Assembly: GCA_017549765.1 (NCBI GenBank)
Contig: JAFYNM010000009.1
Coordinates: forward strand, 72,390-116,158
Direction of reading: 5' to 3'
Origin: Bacteroidales bacterium
GTDB taxonomy: Bacteria; Bacteroidota; Bacteroidia; Bacteroidales; WCHB1-69
Length of the DNA stretch: 43,769 nt
The number at the start of each line of letters is the position of its first letter. The stretch's first letter is position 1. The translations under genes were made by a program, and so were the position numbers. The notes beneath the pieces are model-generated. The model worked only from the letters and a program-made list of their open reading frames with translations, ran no database searches and was not told the origin of the DNA. Shown here in pieces: positions 28,516 to 35,885 of the stretch.

Positions 28516-29583
28516 TTATTGTTTGATAACCTTCTGTACGGCACCATGATGATCGTTGTAGAGGTGCAGGATGTAGAGGCCTCTAGGCAAGCCGTCGAGG
28601 GGTACGGTGAGAGTCTCTCCTCCGTTGGTCGAGGTGGAGGTCCAGAGAATCTGTCCGGTGAGGCTCACCAAAGAGCAATGGAAGGTCTCTTCGTGGTCGC
28701 TGACGGTGACCTGCACGTAGTCGGTGGCGGGGTTGGGATAGACGGAGCAGTGGGCAAAAGCGTAGTCGTGGACGTCGGTGACGAAAGGCTGTAGCGTATC
28801 CCCTCCGAAAATCATGTTAACCAGCTCAGGGTAGTCGATGAAGGGGTTGCGGTTTTCCTGAATGCCATAGATGGCGTTGTTCCGGTCAATCTCTTTCTGG
28901 CTCACCGGATCCATGGCATGCCAGCCAAGCAGCATCTGCAGTGCCCAGGGCTTGAGGGAGCCGCCCTCGAACATGGATTGGTCGTAGCCCATATTTTTGT
29001 CCATATAGCAGACTGCCATGTAGAAGTAGGAGCGGGCCAGGTCACCCTTATAGGCGTCGATGGGTTCAAAGACCTGTCCACTATAGCCTGACGTGGCACA
29101 GGAGCCCACCTTGGAGCCGTTGAGGCTGGTCCAGGTGGCGTTGCCCACCTTGGCAAAAGGCAGGTTGCCTCGTTTGTTGTTGACCCAACCGTCGGTAGGG
29201 TAGAGGTGAAAAAGGTCGGTGTACATGGGTGTGCTACCGTTGAACCAACTTTGGGGCACGGAGTGTTCACGGTTGTAACAGTCGCCTTCCGAGTTGTAGT
29301 TGCCGCACTGATCGGTCCCGAAGGTGTAGAGGTAGGGAGCCTGTCCGTTGGGATTGTCGGAGTAGATGTCCCAAACTTTGCCGTCGGGTCGCACATCGGT
29401 GGTGTAGAAGGCGCTCCAAAGACCCCCATAGGATAGTTCCGTGTGAACCTTGATGATGTTATGCAGCGCCACCTTCAAGGCATACCCGTGCTGGTTCTCT
29501 GCGTTTTGGTAGTAGTCGTCGGGATTCTGGGCAGACAAGAACAGAGGGAAAGCCAATAGTAATATGCAGTATAGAGGTTTCAT
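28516..29583 (-). CDS. Secreted endonuclease I with T9SS C-terminal domain
   Basis: 355 residues from ATG 29583. Residues 1-18 are a signal peptide ending LFLSAQ. The endonuclease I (Dns) core is clear: NREHSVPQSWF near 104-114 with the catalytic His107, DLFHLYPTDGWVNNKRGN near 123-140, and YKGDLARSYFYMAVCY. It degrades DNA outside the cell for nutrients or matrix turnover. The last 75 residues are a type A T9SS sorting domain (SVYPNPATDYVQV, LPRGLYILHL, end KVIKQ). The start is fixed by the promoter box at 29603-29610. Confidence 0.92.
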   Translation of the reverse strand: MKPLYCILLLAFPLFLSAQNPDDYYQNAENQHGYALKVALHNIIKVHTELSYGGLWSAFYTTDVRPDGKVWDIYSDNPNGQAPYLYTFGTDQCGNYNSEGDCYNREHSVPQSWFNGSTPMYTDLFHLYPTDGWVNNKRGNLPFAKVGNATWTSLNGSKVGSCATSGYSGQVFEPIDAYKGDLARSYFYMAVCYMDKNMGYDQSMFEGGSLKPWALQMLLGWHAMDPVSQKEIDRNNAIYGIQENRNPFIDYPELVNMIFGGDTLQPFVTDVHDYAFAHCSVYPNPATDYVQVTVSDHEETFHCSLVSLTGQILWTSTSTNGGETLTVPLDGLPRGLYILHLYNDHHGAVQKVIKQ

Positions 29584-31540: not shown

Positions 31541-32428
31541 ATGTCCTCACACAGATTTCTTATCTGGATTGTCTGCTTGGTCATGTTGTGTGGATGCCGT
31601 AATCCGCACCATGAGGAGCAGACAATCTTTTTGCATTATACTGACTCCTACCAGCGCGAGGTGGTCTTGCAGAAGGAGCCGCAACGGATTGTCTCCCTGT
31701 CGCCCGCCATTACGGAGTTGCTCTTCATGATAGGGGCTGGAGACCGCTTGGTGGGTATCTCCGACTATTGCCAGTATCCTGACGAGACGCAGAAGATCCC
31801 CAAGGTGGGCGGTATGCAGAATATCAACATGGAGACGTTGCTTTCACTGCATCCCGACGTGGTCCTGATCGGCTCGATGGTGTCGCAGGAAGATGTAGAT
31901 AAAATAGAGAAGTTGAATATTCCCGTCATCGCCTTGATTGAGGAGTCGGACATCACGGGCATCTCTACCCTGATGCTGAACTTGGGCAAGATCACCAACC
32001 AAGACTCTGTGGCGCGGGTGGAGGCCGACCGTTGGCAGCAGACTCTGGAGAACTTCCGACAGCACAACGTGCTTCGGCAGGGTCCTCCCAAAAGCGTCTA
32101 TTATGTGGTCGGTTTTGGGGAGACAGGCGACTTCACCGCGCCTAAGGGAAGCCATATCCATCAGATTATCGAGCTGGCAGGCTGCCGCAATGTGGGAGAG
32201 GATGTGTCCACATGGAATGTGAGCCGCGAGTTCTTGTTCCAGGCAGACCCCGACATCATTGTGGTACGTAAGGAAGACATGCAGAGTTTCTGCTCCCTAT
32301 ATCCCTACACGCTTCTCAAGGCTGTGAAAAACAAGAAGGTGTATCCTATTGAAAGTTCATGGATTGACATCGTGACGCCTCGCAACCTGAAGGCGATCGC
32401 CTATCTGCAGAAAATCACTTCCGAATGA
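31541..32428 (+). CDS. BtuF-like substrate-binding lipoprotein (probably cobalamin)
   Basis: 295 residues with a lipoprotein signal (LCGC, Cys19). The rest is a class III periplasmic-binding fold: PQRIVSLSPAITELLFMIGAGDRLVGISDYCQYPD is the classic opening of BtuF/FhuD-like proteins, followed by VGGMQNINMETLLSLHPDVVLIG. Such proteins deliver cobalamin, haem or ferric siderophores to an ABC importer. Cobalamin is favoured because the gene is 2 bases downstream of mutA, a B12-dependent enzyme subunit. The permease and ATPase are not in the window. Its stop overlaps the converging anti-sigma gene by 14 bases. Confidence 0.82.
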   Translation: MSSHRFLIWIVCLVMLCGCRNPHHEEQTIFLHYTDSYQREVVLQKEPQRIVSLSPAITELLFMIGAGDRLVGISDYCQYPDETQKIPKVGGMQNINMETLLSLHPDVVLIGSMVSQEDVDKIEKLNIPVIALIEESDITGISTLMLNLGKITNQDSVARVEADRWQQTLENFRQHNVLRQGPPKSVYYVVGFGETGDFTAPKGSHIHQIIELAGCRNVGEDVSTWNVSREFLFQADPDIIVVRKEDMQSFCSLYPYTLLKAVKNKKVYPIESSWIDIVTPRNLKAIAYLQKITSE

Positions 32429-33311
32429 TGGTCACAGAGCCTTGCAAGGTCTCTTCTATCTGGTTTCGTCCGAAGGTGAGCTGGTAGAAGTAAACGCCTT
32501 CCGGACAATTGCTACCATCCCAGTTGTTGTTGTATTTGGAAGACTGATACACGGTCTTTCCAGAGCGGTCGCGCACGATCAAGACTCTTTTGTTGCACTG
32601 CTCCAGGCCCATAATGACGAAGAGGTCGTTGTAGCCGTCGCCGTTGGGTGTGAAGACATTGGGAATCTCCAGCTTTTGTGTTGGCTCGACCACCTGCAAG
32701 GTCTCGGTTTGTTCTTGGATGACGGGATCCTCCTGGGCGGAGGTCACGATGATGGGTGTCGCGGGCACTAAAGAGGGGGTAGTGACTGGCTTGGGGGGTT
32801 GGGGCGTGACCGTCCGAGGCGCCAAGGGGGCGGGTTGGACGGCAGGGGTCACGACAACAGGTTGTTCGGAGGTTCTCTCCGTTGCCCTTTCAGGAGCAGG
32901 AGCCTCCTCAGACACTTCGACGGGGCTTTGTGTGGCTGTCGTCGGAGTGGCGGTTGACAGTTCGGGATCATAAGGAATCTCTTCCATGGTCTCGGTGACG
33001 GAAGTGTCGGTGGCGGGAACGGAAATAGGGGTGGGCACTGAGTCGGGAGAAGTCTTGAGGAGAGCCACGGCCGTCAGCACGATGACACTAGCCCCGATGG
33101 TGAGTCCTGCCATCGTAATGAGAAGCTTGGCCTTGGCGGCGCCGGCCAGACGGGATGCATGACGGCCTGCCTCCATGGCCGACTGTCCACTGCCCGCACC
33201 TTCAGCAGATGCTTGGGGCATAAGCTGGTCCAGCCGCCCGCTGAGCTTCTGCCAGCAGTCTGCCGACGGAGTCATCTCATGACTATCCAATATGTCCTTT
33301 ATGGTACTCAT
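32415..33311 (-). CDS. Probable anti-sigma factor with a gliding-motility-type (CHU_C, T9SS type B) C-terminal domain
   Basis: 298 residues, no signal peptide. Residues 1-60 are cytoplasmic and start with a short helical segment (IKDILDSHEMTPSADCWQKL), as in small Bacteroidota anti-sigma proteins. One membrane segment spans about 62-85. Residues 86-210 are a Pro/Thr/Val/Glu-rich stalk. Residues 216-298 are a complete CHU_C domain (PNVFTPNGDGYNDLF, then NNNWDGSNCPEGVYFY and the end GSVTIIRK). The gene starts 5 bases after the ECF sigma stop, the usual place for an anti-sigma gene. The anti-sigma role is inference from position and layout. The C-terminal domain is normally found on T9SS cargo, which makes this protein unusual. 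Confidence 0.75.
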   Translation of the reverse strand: MSTIKDILDSHEMTPSADCWQKLSGRLDQLMPQASAEGAGSGQSAMEAGRHASRLAGAAKAKLLITMAGLTIGASVIVLTAVALLKTSPDSVPTPISVPATDTSVTETMEEIPYDPELSTATPTTATQSPVEVSEEAPAPERATERTSEQPVVVTPAVQPAPLAPRTVTPQPPKPVTTPSLVPATPIIVTSAQEDPVIQEQTETLQVVEPTQKLEIPNVFTPNGDGYNDLFVIMGLEQCNKRVLIVRDRSGKTVYQSSKYNNNWDGSNCPEGVYFYQLTFGRNQIEETLQGSVTIIRK

Positions 33312-33316
33312 CCGTG

Positions 33317-33853
33317 TTATAGATCTTCTTCCTTAATTCGTTTTTGCAACCACTGCCGTCCCCGGAACAGATGCACCCGCACCGTGTTGACCGGCTCCTG
33401 GACCATCTCCGCAATCTCTTCAAACTCATATCCTTCCACCTCTCGTAAGTTGAACACTATCCGCTGTTTTTCCGGCATCTCATCCATCAGTCGCAACAGA
33501 TGTTCCGCTTTCAACCGGGTGTCCAAATCGTCAGTGTACGGCGAAATGGTCTCCACCTCCATGGGAACCTCCGCCTCATATCGCCGTTTGTGCGCCCTGA
33601 AATAGTCGATAGACTGGTTCACCATGATGCTCTTTATCCAGGTGTAGAGCGTACTTTCATTCTTCTTCCCATATTGGTCCAACTTCTGGAAAACTTTGAT
33701 AAAACCCTCCATCATGATGTCCTCGGCCTCCTCCTGTGAGTTACAGTATCTGCGACAGACACCGAGCATTTTAGGTGCAAAAGATTGATATAAAGCATAT
33801 TGTGCTTTTCTATCATTCTTCAGACATCCCTCCAGAATGGATTCTATGTTCAT
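33317..33853 (-). CDS. ECF-type RNA polymerase sigma factor
   Basis: 178 residues from ATG 33853; a GTG at 33865 would add four residues. Sigma region 2 is visible (YALYQSFAPKMLGVCRRYC, EEAEDIMMEGFIKVFQKLDQY, TLYTWIKSIMVNQSIDYFR), and so is region 4 (MPEKQRIVFNLREVEGYEFEEIAEMV, then VNTVRVHLFRGRQWLQ). There is no region 1.1 or 3, as usual for ECF factors. It is co-transcribed with the probable anti-sigma gene. It is divergent from the large lipoprotein at 34062, a possible target. Its own promoter box at 33924-33931 is of the housekeeping type. Confidence 0.92.
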   Translation of the reverse strand: MNIESILEGCLKNDRKAQYALYQSFAPKMLGVCRRYCNSQEEAEDIMMEGFIKVFQKLDQYGKKNESTLYTWIKSIMVNQSIDYFRAHKRRYEAEVPMEVETISPYTDDLDTRLKAEHLLRLMDEMPEKQRIVFNLREVEGYEFEEIAEMVQEPVNTVRVHLFRGRQWLQKRIKEEDL

Positions 33854-33923
33854 TTTCTCATTCACACCTCAAAGACGAAAAAAAGAATTCATTTATTACA
33901 CCTGCCTCATTTTTTTGGGGTGA

Positions 33924-34061: not shown

Positions 34062-35885
34062 ATGAAGAAAAATGCTCTTTTAGGCGTATTACTGCTTGCA
34101 ATTCTTTGCAGTGGATGCGGATTTGGTAAGATGGTTACCAAATATCCGGAAGTCTCCATCACCTTGGATGACGAAAACCTGGAGACCAGGGGAGGACAAG
34201 TTGCCTACACCATCAAGGGTGCGATTCCTCCGAAGTATATGAAGAAAAAAGCCACGATGGTGCTGACTCCGACTTTGAAGGTGGACGGTCAGAACGTTGC
34301 TCCTTTCACCACCATCACGTTGAAAGGCGAGAAGGCCAAGGGCGAAGGCACGACCATCAGCTACAAGAAAGGTGGCACCTTCACCAAGACGGGTACTTTC
34401 ACGTATAAAGACGAGTATGACATGGCGGAGATCGTAGCCCCGGCGACAGCCCAGCTCAAGAAGAAATCCACCACGTTGAACCCCGAGAAGATTTTAGGTG
34501 AGGGTATTGCCAACACCTCTTCCCGTGTGGGATTCCAACCGCGTCTGGCCGACAACAACAACAATGGAACGGCCTTCCTATATGCTCCGCACAACTTCCA
34601 GACGGAGTATATCGGCAAGATGGCCACCATCTATTTCGACTTGAACAGCTCCAACATGAACTGGAGTAACAAATACAACAAGTCAACGGCTGCCAAGGAC
34701 TCCATCAAGGCTTTCCTGAACTTTATGAATGAAGGACAGAACATCAACCGTGTGGTCATTTCCGGTTGGGCTTCCCCCGAAGGCGAGGAGAGCAACAACC
34801 AAGGTCTTTCCGAAAGACGTTTCGAGCAAGGCAAAAAGTGGTTTGAGAACCAATATGAACAATATCTGAAAGCCTATGCCAAGGCTAACAAGATCAAAAT
34901 GAAAGACCTGAAGCGCCCCACCTTCGAATATGTCAACAATGCAAAAGGTGAGGACTGGGACGGCTTCGAGGCCGCTATCGCCCAATCCAACATTGCCCAA
35001 AAGAATCAGATTCTCAATGTGGTACACTCCCAGCCAAACAACGATATGCGTGAGCAGAAGATCCGCGAGATGACGGACATCTATCCCGAGATTGCCGACG
35101 TCATCCTGCCTCCGTTGCGTCGTGCCGAGATGTCTTTGATTTGCCAGAAGCACGAGACCTACACCAACGAGGAACTGATCCGTCGTGTGAAGGCCAACCC
35201 GTCTGATTTCTCCATCAATGAGCGTCTGTATGCCGCTTCCGTCTCTTCCGACCTCTCCGAGCAGGAGCAGATATATCTGGCTTTGATCAACGATCGCAAC
35301 ACCGAAGGCGACTGGCGTGCCTATAATGACCTGGGAGCTTTGAAACTCAACGCTTATTACAATGGCGGTGACACCAGAGATTTGGACGATGCTATCAGCT
35401 ATCTCAACAAGGCTGCTGCCATCTCCCCGAACAACGGTGTGATCCTGAACAACCTGGCTCTGGCTCAGTTCTACAAAGGTGACCTGGCTGCTGCCCGTGA
35501 AAACTTCAACGCTTCCAAGAATGCTTCTACCAACGCAGTGAACCAAGACGAGGCCACGGCTGTGTTTGACATTGTGGATGGTAACTATGACGGTGCCCTG
35601 CAGCTGATCGGCACGGGCTCTTGCAACTACAACGCCGCCCTCGTCCAATTGTTGAACAAAGACTACAACACCTGTCTCAACACGTTGAACTGCATCACCA
35701 ACCCCGATGCCAAGACCTATTATCTGAAGGCTGTGTTGGCTGCCCGTATGCATAATGAAGGTGATGTCTATAGCAATCTCGGTTCTGCCATCAACTTGGA
35801 TCCTTCTTACAAAAAGACTGCCAAACGCGATGCAGAATTCAAGAAATACCGTCATACTGACACCTTCAAGAATCTTGTAAGATAA
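34062..35885 (+). CDS. TPR-containing lipoprotein with an OmpA-like region
   Basis: 607 residues. Lipobox CSGC (Cys19) follows a strong signal peptide. Residues about 25-185 are beta-rich with no family I know. About 188-245 resembles an OmpA-type peptidoglycan-binding segment (TIYFDLNSSNMNW, then VVISGWASPEGEESNNQGLSERR), which keeps the Asp/Arg pattern. After a helical stretch, about 410-600 forms degenerate TPR repeats (ISYLNKAAAISPNNGVILNNLALAQFYKGDL). It is probably an outer-membrane or periplasmic lipoprotein that grips peptidoglycan and scaffolds other proteins. It is divergent from an ECF sigma gene and ends in a strong terminator, suggesting a single, well-expressed gene. Confidence 0.8.
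   Translation: MKKNALLGVLLLAILCSGCGFGKMVTKYPEVSITLDDENLETRGGQVAYTIKGAIPPKYMKKKATMVLTPTLKVDGQNVAPFTTITLKGEKAKGEGTTISYKKGGTFTKTGTFTYKDEYDMAEIVAPATAQLKKKSTTLNPEKILGEGIANTSSRVGFQPRLADNNNNGTAFLYAPHNFQTEYIGKMATIYFDLNSSNMNWSNKYNKSTAAKDSIKAFLNFMNEGQNINRVVISGWASPEGEESNNQGLSERRFEQGKKWFENQYEQYLKAYAKANKIKMKDLKRPTFEYVNNAKGEDWDGFEAAIAQSNIAQKNQILNVVHSQPNNDMREQKIREMTDIYPEIADVILPPLRRAEMSLICQKHETYTNEELIRRVKANPSDFSINERLYAASVSSDLSEQEQIYLALINDRNTEGDWRAYNDLGALKLNAYYNGGDTRDLDDAISYLNKAAAISPNNGVILNNLALAQFYKGDLAAARENFNASKNASTNAVNQDEATAVFDIVDGNYDGALQLIGTGSCNYNAALVQLLNKDYNTCLNTLNCITNPDAKTYYLKAVLAARMHNEGDVYSNLGSAINLDPSYKKTAKRDAEFKKYRHTDTFKNLVR

Follow-up and report, generated by a model that had tools for sequence, protein, structure and literature searches.

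In a 43,769-nucleotide stretch of DNA from a Bacteroidales genome (hereafter the window; the genome, G000, has 2.45 Mb in 36 contigs), the minus strand carries a gene for an extracytoplasmic function (ECF) sigma factor and, 5 nucleotides (nt) downstream of it and on the same strand, a gene for an anti-sigma-like protein that ends in a CHU_C domain, the type-B C-terminal domain (CTD) of cargo of the type IX secretion system (T9SS). We consider it fairly probable that this pair is an autoregulated sigma factor with an inner-membrane anti-sigma factor of the dual-membrane-spanning (Dma) type, in which CHU_C stands in the place of a C-terminal outer-membrane beta-barrel, and that it acts by export-coupled feedback on cargo genes. 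To our knowledge, little is understood of how Bacteroidota adjust the synthesis of T9SS cargo to their export capacity. An anti-sigma factor with a cargo signal domain, together with the predicted promoter of its partner sigma factor in front of cargo genes, outlines a specific and testable circuit by which cells may make secreted proteins in step with the state of the export machine. We found no published description of a CHU_C-bearing anti-sigma factor in the open-licence literature, as judged by titles and the openings of abstracts, and the accessible portion of one paper (PMC8999054) held nothing bearing on such pairs.

The sigma factor gene and its CHU_C-bearing neighbour

The sigma factor gene (33317..33865, minus strand), recognised as an open reading frame (ORF) with Pfam and NCBIfam matches, encodes 182 amino acids (aa) when read from GTG 33865 and 178 aa when read from ATG 33853. 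On the DNA sequence the latter start seems more likely, because the promoter-like element upstream of the gene ends at 33874. This element, TGTAATAAATGAATTCTTTTTTTCGTC (33874..33900, minus strand), is the predicted ECF promoter of the sigma operon and follows the pattern TGTRAY-N17-CGWC (P1) that lies upstream of most of the sigma genes of the genus. The encoded protein matches Pfam Sigma70_r2 (2.4e-16) and Sigma70_r4_2 (5e-16), and no NCBIfam equivalog cut-off was reached among the best 25 of the 110 matches listed.

The anti-sigma-like protein (32415..33311, minus strand; 298 aa) was identified by its ORF, by Pfam and NCBIfam matches and by its counterparts at the genus loci. Residues 1-35 (PSADCWQKLSGRLD; 33207..33311, minus strand) are predicted to form the anti-sigma domain, as indicated by a profile common to barrel-type anti-sigma factors and by an AlphaFold2 model built with 13 sequences, in which this end of the protein shows two short helices (residues 4-9 and 17-29) with a block confidence score (pLDDT) of about 58-63. 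Hydropathy gives a single transmembrane (TM) segment at residues 67-85 (33057..33113, minus strand), and an N-terminus with neither a hydrophobic stretch nor a signal peptide. The stalk that follows (residues 86-214; 32670..33056, minus strand) is rich in Pro, Thr and Ser and is probably disordered, as suggested by its composition and by a pLDDT below 60 nearly throughout, a value shared by nearly all of the rest of the model. The CHU_C domain (residues 215-295 of 298; 32427..32669, minus strand) is supported by Pfam (PF13585, 1.2e-20), by NCBIfam (TIGR04131, type B sorting domain, 9.1e-14), by motifs and by the model, which assigns it high confidence (block pLDDT 80-96). It keeps the motif NGDGxND and lacks the RWG-type motif of cargo, in whose place stands DRSGK.

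A sequence-only reading of the window had proposed that these two genes form a sigma/anti-sigma pair whose second member, having an internal TM segment and no Sec signal peptide, stays in the inner membrane with its CHU_C domain in the periplasm, where it may compete with cargo or report on it at the T9SS. This interpretation stands in part. The coordinates and the arrangement of sigma gene, 5-nt gap and CHU_C gene agree with what we found by ORFs, Pfam, NCBIfam and hydropathy; the pairing, the internal TM segment without a signal peptide and the periplasmic placement of CHU_C are also supported by the sequence. The proposed dependence of sigma release on the state of the T9SS is discussed below.

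Conservation of the pair and kinship with barrel-type anti-sigma factors

A like protein is encoded downstream of the sigma gene at 29 of the 30 genus-level loci, which argues that the pairing is not due to chance. The 30th locus ends at a contig edge, and a fragment that covers profile positions 159-296 and borders the end of a second contig of this genome (G033:C109) is probably the remainder of its anti-sigma factor. Among 20 further loci, two of the same genus and six of other genera of the family have the identical architecture (seven of these eight were scored by a motif expression and one, L054, by eye); the 12 from other families comprise one with CHU_C (G066), nine that are barrel-like in appearance and two of unclear form. 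In a scan of named genomes, 12 of the 80 CHU_C loci among the matches listed have an ECF gene at most 300 nt upstream, and all 12 proteins have an internal TM segment; no ECF gene was seen upstream of the remaining 68, of which 48 show 300 nt of upstream sequence and 20 show less.

The sequence-only reading had suggested looking for the architecture next to other ECF genes. A profile of the whole anti-sigma factor gave full-length matches in at least 17 of 295 genomes of the order, from seven Bacteroidales families. Two more families (G056 and G062) have a weaker CHU_C, with own-profile values of 7e-11 and 2e-8; that of G056 stays below the Pfam cut-off (20.5 of 27 bits), and its anti-sigma factor has PKD domains before CHU_C, as in cargo of the window's own genome. 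At 20 profile-match loci that we inspected, six of them already among the loci above, the sigma gene lies within 300 nt in 19 cases and about 350 nt away in the 20th. None of 13 short CHU_C ORFs from a sample of the phylum, picked by frame length among the matches listed, has an adjacent sigma gene; three of them (L163, L165 and L170) start at a contig edge, with the upstream sequence out of view.

In other families, what follows most of the sigma relatives that we inspected is a protein that begins alike but has a longer C-terminus. Of six such barrel-type proteins that were scanned, five match Pfam OMP_b-brl_2 and one (L053) has no match, so that the label "barrel" is backed by Pfam in five of six cases, and it was given by look to seven further proteins. 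When a profile restricted to alignment columns 1-44 of 30 CHU_C anti-sigma factors was run on 241 ORFs, all 13 barrel-type proteins ranked above the first unrelated ORF (E-values of 3.4e-10 to 0.19, several singly weak, versus 0.84); the comparison was made with these barrel-type relatives and not with Dma1-3 themselves. In the accessible part of its description, the Dma anti-sigma factor consists of an anti-sigma domain, a TM segment, a disordered tether and a C-terminal barrel (PMC13088901), and a similar pair is likewise described in part for Phocaeicola vulgatus (PMC9308784). Because its N-terminus is shared with the barrel form, and because the barrel form fits the published Dma layout, the window protein is, as judged from these comparisons, a Dma-type anti-sigma factor in which the barrel has been replaced by the T9SS cargo domain CHU_C.

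In a tree of 70 sigma rows, the distribution of the CHU_C and barrel labels needs six changes, at least two of which are forced by well-supported branches; on this tree, CHU_C sits on more than one sigma lineage. The tree left out L047 and L055, whose anti-sigma factors are unclear (both downstream ORFs match the N-terminal profile), as well as L012, L017, L020, L024, L025, L035, L041, L042 and L198. The far end of Dma-type anti-sigma factors may be an exchangeable sensor module, and other C-terminal modules may therefore reveal what other pairs sense.

Predicted promoters and the genes behind them

Exact P1 sites are present upstream of 25 of the 30 genus genes for this sigma factor (sigma 1), against 0.085 of 30 expected from Markov-shuffled upstream regions, the 30 genomes being related to one another; by eye, the other five upstream regions hold near variants. 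Outside family f1, a loose form of the promoter pattern was found upstream of the sigma gene at 2 of 19 loci. The clade form TGTAACATT-N14-CGACWTA, searched in nine relatives with at most one mismatch, gave 15 sites versus none for the reversed pattern that served as control. Eight of these are the sigma factor's own promoter, and the seven non-self sites all precede a CHU_C cargo gene or operon, lying 24-79 nt upstream of a gene whose product has a hydrophobic start. Four of the loci encode a secreted protein of 147-164 aa followed by a CHU_C protein of 951-967 aa, two encode an orthologous CHU_C protein of 949 aa, and one encodes CHU_C proteins of 877 and 1368 aa. The seven sites are not independent, because they fall into only three kinds of locus, and the cargo of two of these, the first two named, is related to a single tandem in the window's own genome. 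The small secreted protein is itself conserved: at L286, L287, L288, L289 and L295 (G000:C7) it ends in Q-[FY]-x-Y and directly precedes the CHU_C cargo gene, and the L286 copy, the only one scanned, has no Pfam match.

In the window's own genome, an exact P1 site lies 27 nt before the gene for an 893-aa CHU_C protein (domains IgGFc_binding, PKD and CHU_C), a site that is also present in G011 with one mismatch. Another exact site, common to three relatives, precedes the gene for a FISUMP-domain protein. In four genomes the latter gene (L292:10534-11952, minus strand; G000:C29) has a P1 site at a distance of 49-52 nt upstream, and a fifth genome, G011, has a variant of it; the secreted product of this gene carries a T9SS type-A sorting domain that is internal (residues 89-161) and not C-terminal.

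The same genome has a second pair of an ECF sigma factor and a CHU_C anti-sigma factor (G000:C29), for which we predict the promoter TGCAAYAAA-N13-CGTCTTA (P2). With at most one mismatch, six genomes contain 16 such sites versus none for the controls: six before sigma 2, of which two fall within the longest open frame, yet ahead of the likely start; five before one orthologous cargo gene, in five of the six genomes; and five before other secreted-protein genes, four of them FISUMP-like by look. The pattern was composed after viewing the site of the own-genome cargo gene and those before sigma 2 in G000, G037 and G033; the G000 sites and the G037 self site are not independent, and the remaining sites are. 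The CHU_C domain of the orthologous cargo is seen in the own-genome copy (956 aa); at the other four loci the sequence stops short of the C-terminus. When P1 and P2 were compared at 228 ORF starts of the own genome, a set biased to CHU_C loci, the only zero-mismatch P1 sites were those of sigma 1, the 893-aa cargo and the FISUMP gene (next best two mismatches), and the only zero-mismatch P2 sites were those of sigma 2 and the 956-aa cargo (next best three). Taken as a pattern in the DNA, the association of both predicted promoters with type-B cargo genes is well supported, and the predicted regulons, which include type-B CHU_C cargo, support the link to the T9SS that had been drawn from the sequence alone.

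The CHU_C domains of the two anti-sigma factors were also compared with those of cargo. On 19 CHU_C rows of the own genome, one of them a 60-aa fragment, the profile of anti-1 scores above that of anti-2 in five, and these five are P1 cargo, homologs of the P1 cargo of relatives, or proteins alike in the tail. The cargo on which anti-2 does best is the P2 cargo, where it leads narrowly (72.5 versus 70.8). Of 12 tails from cargo encoded behind P1 or as the second gene of such an operon, 11 are closer to anti-1 than to anti-2. As a comparison of sequences, the likeness of each anti-sigma CHU_C to that of its own cargo is suggestive only.

Pair 2 belongs to an operon-like run, in which the order sigma 2, anti-2, M16-like gene and secreted-protein gene (679-704 aa) is kept at all five family loci; the last gene is CHU_C cargo in four and is truncated by the contig end in the fifth (G033). 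Pfam finds fn3 and CHU_C in the cargo gene of the G037 copy and M16_C in the third gene. In the M16-like gene (L191:8593-9873 and its counterparts) Pfam recognises only the M16_C ("inactive") domain, and its product could be a partner of the anti-sigma factor or of the cargo. Cargo genes near a pair were also noticed elsewhere: one genus member has a CHU_C cargo ORF of 938 aa (L085:6668-9484; G013) on the strand of pair 1, some 1.4 kb further downstream, and in both L181 and L182 of family f142 the pair and a CHU_C cargo gene (867-868 aa) are no more than about 4 kb apart. A third pair in the own genome (L078:1890-2966; G000:C8) has an anti-sigma factor of 169 aa that ends after the stalk, with no C-terminal module, and by look such pairs are also present at L286 and L288.

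As for the surroundings of pair 1, a divergent gene on the plus strand of the window (34062-35885) has a product of 607 aa that begins like a lipoprotein and matches TPR weakly. The same arrangement is found in part of the window's clade, and most other genus members have a different conserved coding end upstream of the sigma operon. Further away (28516-29580, minus strand), the window encodes an endonuclease I with a T9SS type-A sorting domain.

What the tethered cargo domain may sense, and known parallels

In the mechanism that we propose, the sigma factor would activate the operon that encodes it and a small number of genes for secreted proteins, including type-B T9SS cargo. The N-terminus of the anti-sigma factor would hold the sigma factor, and the stalk would present the tethered CHU_C domain in the periplasm, where it would contact a partner that also handles the CHU_C domains of cargo, either the translocon or the PorP/SprF shuttle. 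Occupancy of this partner by cargo would then decide whether the anti-sigma factor frees the sigma factor, so that free capacity would permit more cargo synthesis. The sequence-only reading had the sigma factor released when the T9SS is saturated, blocked or idle. Since the predicted regulon consists of cargo, release at free export capacity fits better than release at blocked export; this sign is one that we infer.

Features of the anti-sigma factors and of cargo were counted on 60 distinct anti-sigma factors (66 minus six repeats), or on the 54 left after dropping those picked by a TM filter. By hydropathy, all of these 54 have an internal TM segment starting at residue 28-100, and none of the 60 has a hydrophobic start, versus 64 of 104 distinct cargo proteins. 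NGDGxND, which is motif A of type-B CTDs, is present in 55 of the 60 anti-sigma factors and in 94 of the 104 cargo proteins. The RWG-type motif (R-[WYHFIT]-G), on the other hand, is found in 94 of the 104 cargo tails and in only 4 of the 60 anti-sigma factors. According to the accessible part of a study of the type-B CTD of SprB from Flavobacterium johnsoniae, mutating any of five conserved motifs stopped secretion (PMC12618676), and our guess is that RWG is one of the five. Loss of RWG fits a domain that is meant to stay unexported, or one that no longer binds the shuttle.

These counts bear on the possibility that the periplasmic part is cleaved and its CHU_C fragment exported through the T9SS as ordinary cargo, export itself lowering the anti-sigma activity, as with FlgM. 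The retention of motif A and the presence of an M16-like gene within the pair-2 run speak for such a route. However, 56 of the 60 anti-sigma factors lack the RWG-type motif, the mutations that stopped secretion of SprB speak against it if RWG is among the five motifs, and the M16-like gene has only the "inactive" domain. We regard this route as quite improbable.

The loss of RWG is also the first of several points that weigh against feedback from export: because the motif is mostly absent, the CHU_C domain of the anti-sigma factors may fail to bind the cargo machinery in the manner of cargo. Secondly, co-occurrence with the T9SS, which the sequence-only reading had put forward as a check, is uninformative. 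Full-length matches were found in none of 16 SprA-negative genomes and in at least 17 of 279 SprA-positive ones; thus all 17 genomes with such a match have SprA, yet so do 279 of the 295 genomes searched, which makes the test weak. One SprA-negative genome (G365) does have CHU_C matches; genomes of the same genus are SprA-positive, and the lack of SprA may, at a guess, be an assembly gap. Thirdly, the promoter searches show no excess once the pattern is relaxed: with at most two mismatches, P1 gave 32 sites versus 41 for controls in the nine relatives and 98 versus 101 in six genomes of the window's clade, and the loose pattern gave 32 versus 38 in the own genome. The one-mismatch threshold was picked after the two-mismatch list had been viewed, and its control covers the nine relatives only. 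At that threshold the window's clade, for which no control was run, has 18 sites, six self and 12 non-self, and the latter precede CHU_C cargo in two cases and one FISUMP gene in four (G000, G005, G001 and G038); the other six are of other kinds or unexplained, and include one within an ORF, one before the gene for a 300-aa lipoprotein, one 117 nt before an ORF of at least 461 aa and one with only a 79-aa ORF behind it. Furthermore, the own-genome relatives of the targets found in the nine genomes (cargo on C7 and C33) have no P1 site near their starts, so that, if the prediction is right, P1 target sets differ between clades. P1 or P2 is present at only 2 of 13 own-genome CHU_C cargo genes in the stretches examined, and the promoter hits that we inspected include no gene recognised as T9SS machinery. 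With all these points counted, we still lean towards feedback from export.

The missing motif also favours a different view of CHU_C, namely as an Ig-like periplasmic sensor of envelope stress or of a surface ligand, a role already proposed for barrel-type pairs, co-opted from cargo and without contact with the T9SS, the cargo in the regulon being coincidental or a matter of surface remodelling. Consistent with this view, barrel-type pairs act on envelope phenotypes, as stated in the accessible parts of two reports (PMC13088901, PMC9308784). It does not sit easily, however, with the position of CHU_C on more than one sigma lineage (six label changes, at least two forced), or with the two paralogous sigma factors; since each has CHU_C cargo behind its promoter element, coincidence in both is unlikely. 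We judge such a sensor unlikely.

It could also be that CHU_C reads secreted cargo held by PorP/SprF at the outer membrane, or the shuttle itself, across the periplasm, as a form of surface signalling like that of PorA-PorXY-SigP. The window's own genome has SprA and three PorP/SprF genes, and in G044 a PorP/SprF gene (L194:267-1172; G044:C2) shares a contig with pair 2, at a distance of about 6 kb. As far as the accessible parts of the sources go, type-B cargo is anchored by PorP-like proteins (PMC9143113), and PorA of Porphyromonas gingivalis, a CTD protein, feeds a sigma pathway (PMC7712824). Against this, the contigs that carry pairs 1 and 2 in the own genome contain none of its three PorP/SprF genes. 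This explanation, which we think unlikely, differs from export-coupled feedback in the partner only.

Compared with type-B cargo such as SprB and PG1035, the window protein has the same C-terminal domain (CHU_C/TIGR04131), but it has no Sec signal peptide, has an internal TM segment and has lost the RWG-type motif. A second parallel is FlgM with sigma-28, an anti-sigma factor that bears the export signal of the system whose substrates its sigma factor controls; FlgM is soluble and is exported through the flagellar type III secretion system. The window anti-sigma factor carries a cargo-type domain, and, going by promoter prediction, its sigma factor may control substrates of the same export system. 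Unlike FlgM, the window protein is anchored by a TM segment, and its CTD looks altered. By a FlgM-like logic, CHU_C would sense the state of export. A bolder suggestion we offer with some reserve: a T9SS counterpart of the FlgM checkpoint may operate on more than one Bacteroidales sigma lineage, with a tethered anti-sigma factor and a periplasmic decoy of the export signal, and paralogous pairs may each guard a separate subtype of type-B cargo, with the promoter, the sigma factor and the CHU_C domains of anti-sigma factor and cargo matched to one another.

In the case of Dma, as far as the accessible descriptions go (PMC13088901, PMC9308784), the window pair shares the adjacent ECF gene, the N-terminal anti-sigma domain, one TM segment, a long disordered tether and a C-terminal domain at its far end. 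The far end is an outer-membrane beta-barrel in Dma and CHU_C in the window protein, and the predicted regulon of the window pair consists of secreted proteins including T9SS cargo, whereas the effects reported for the Dma-type pairs concern outer-membrane vesicles and polysaccharide utilization loci or O-antigen (same sources, in part). Finally, PorA-PorXY-SigP resembles the window pair in that a T9SS CTD-bearing protein influences a T9SS-linked ECF sigma factor. In that system, according to the accessible text, a cell-surface CTD protein stands upstream of a two-component system, and genes for T9SS components are regulated (PMC7712824), whereas in the window the anti-sigma factor itself bears the CTD, and the promoter hits fall before genes for cargo and for other secreted proteins.

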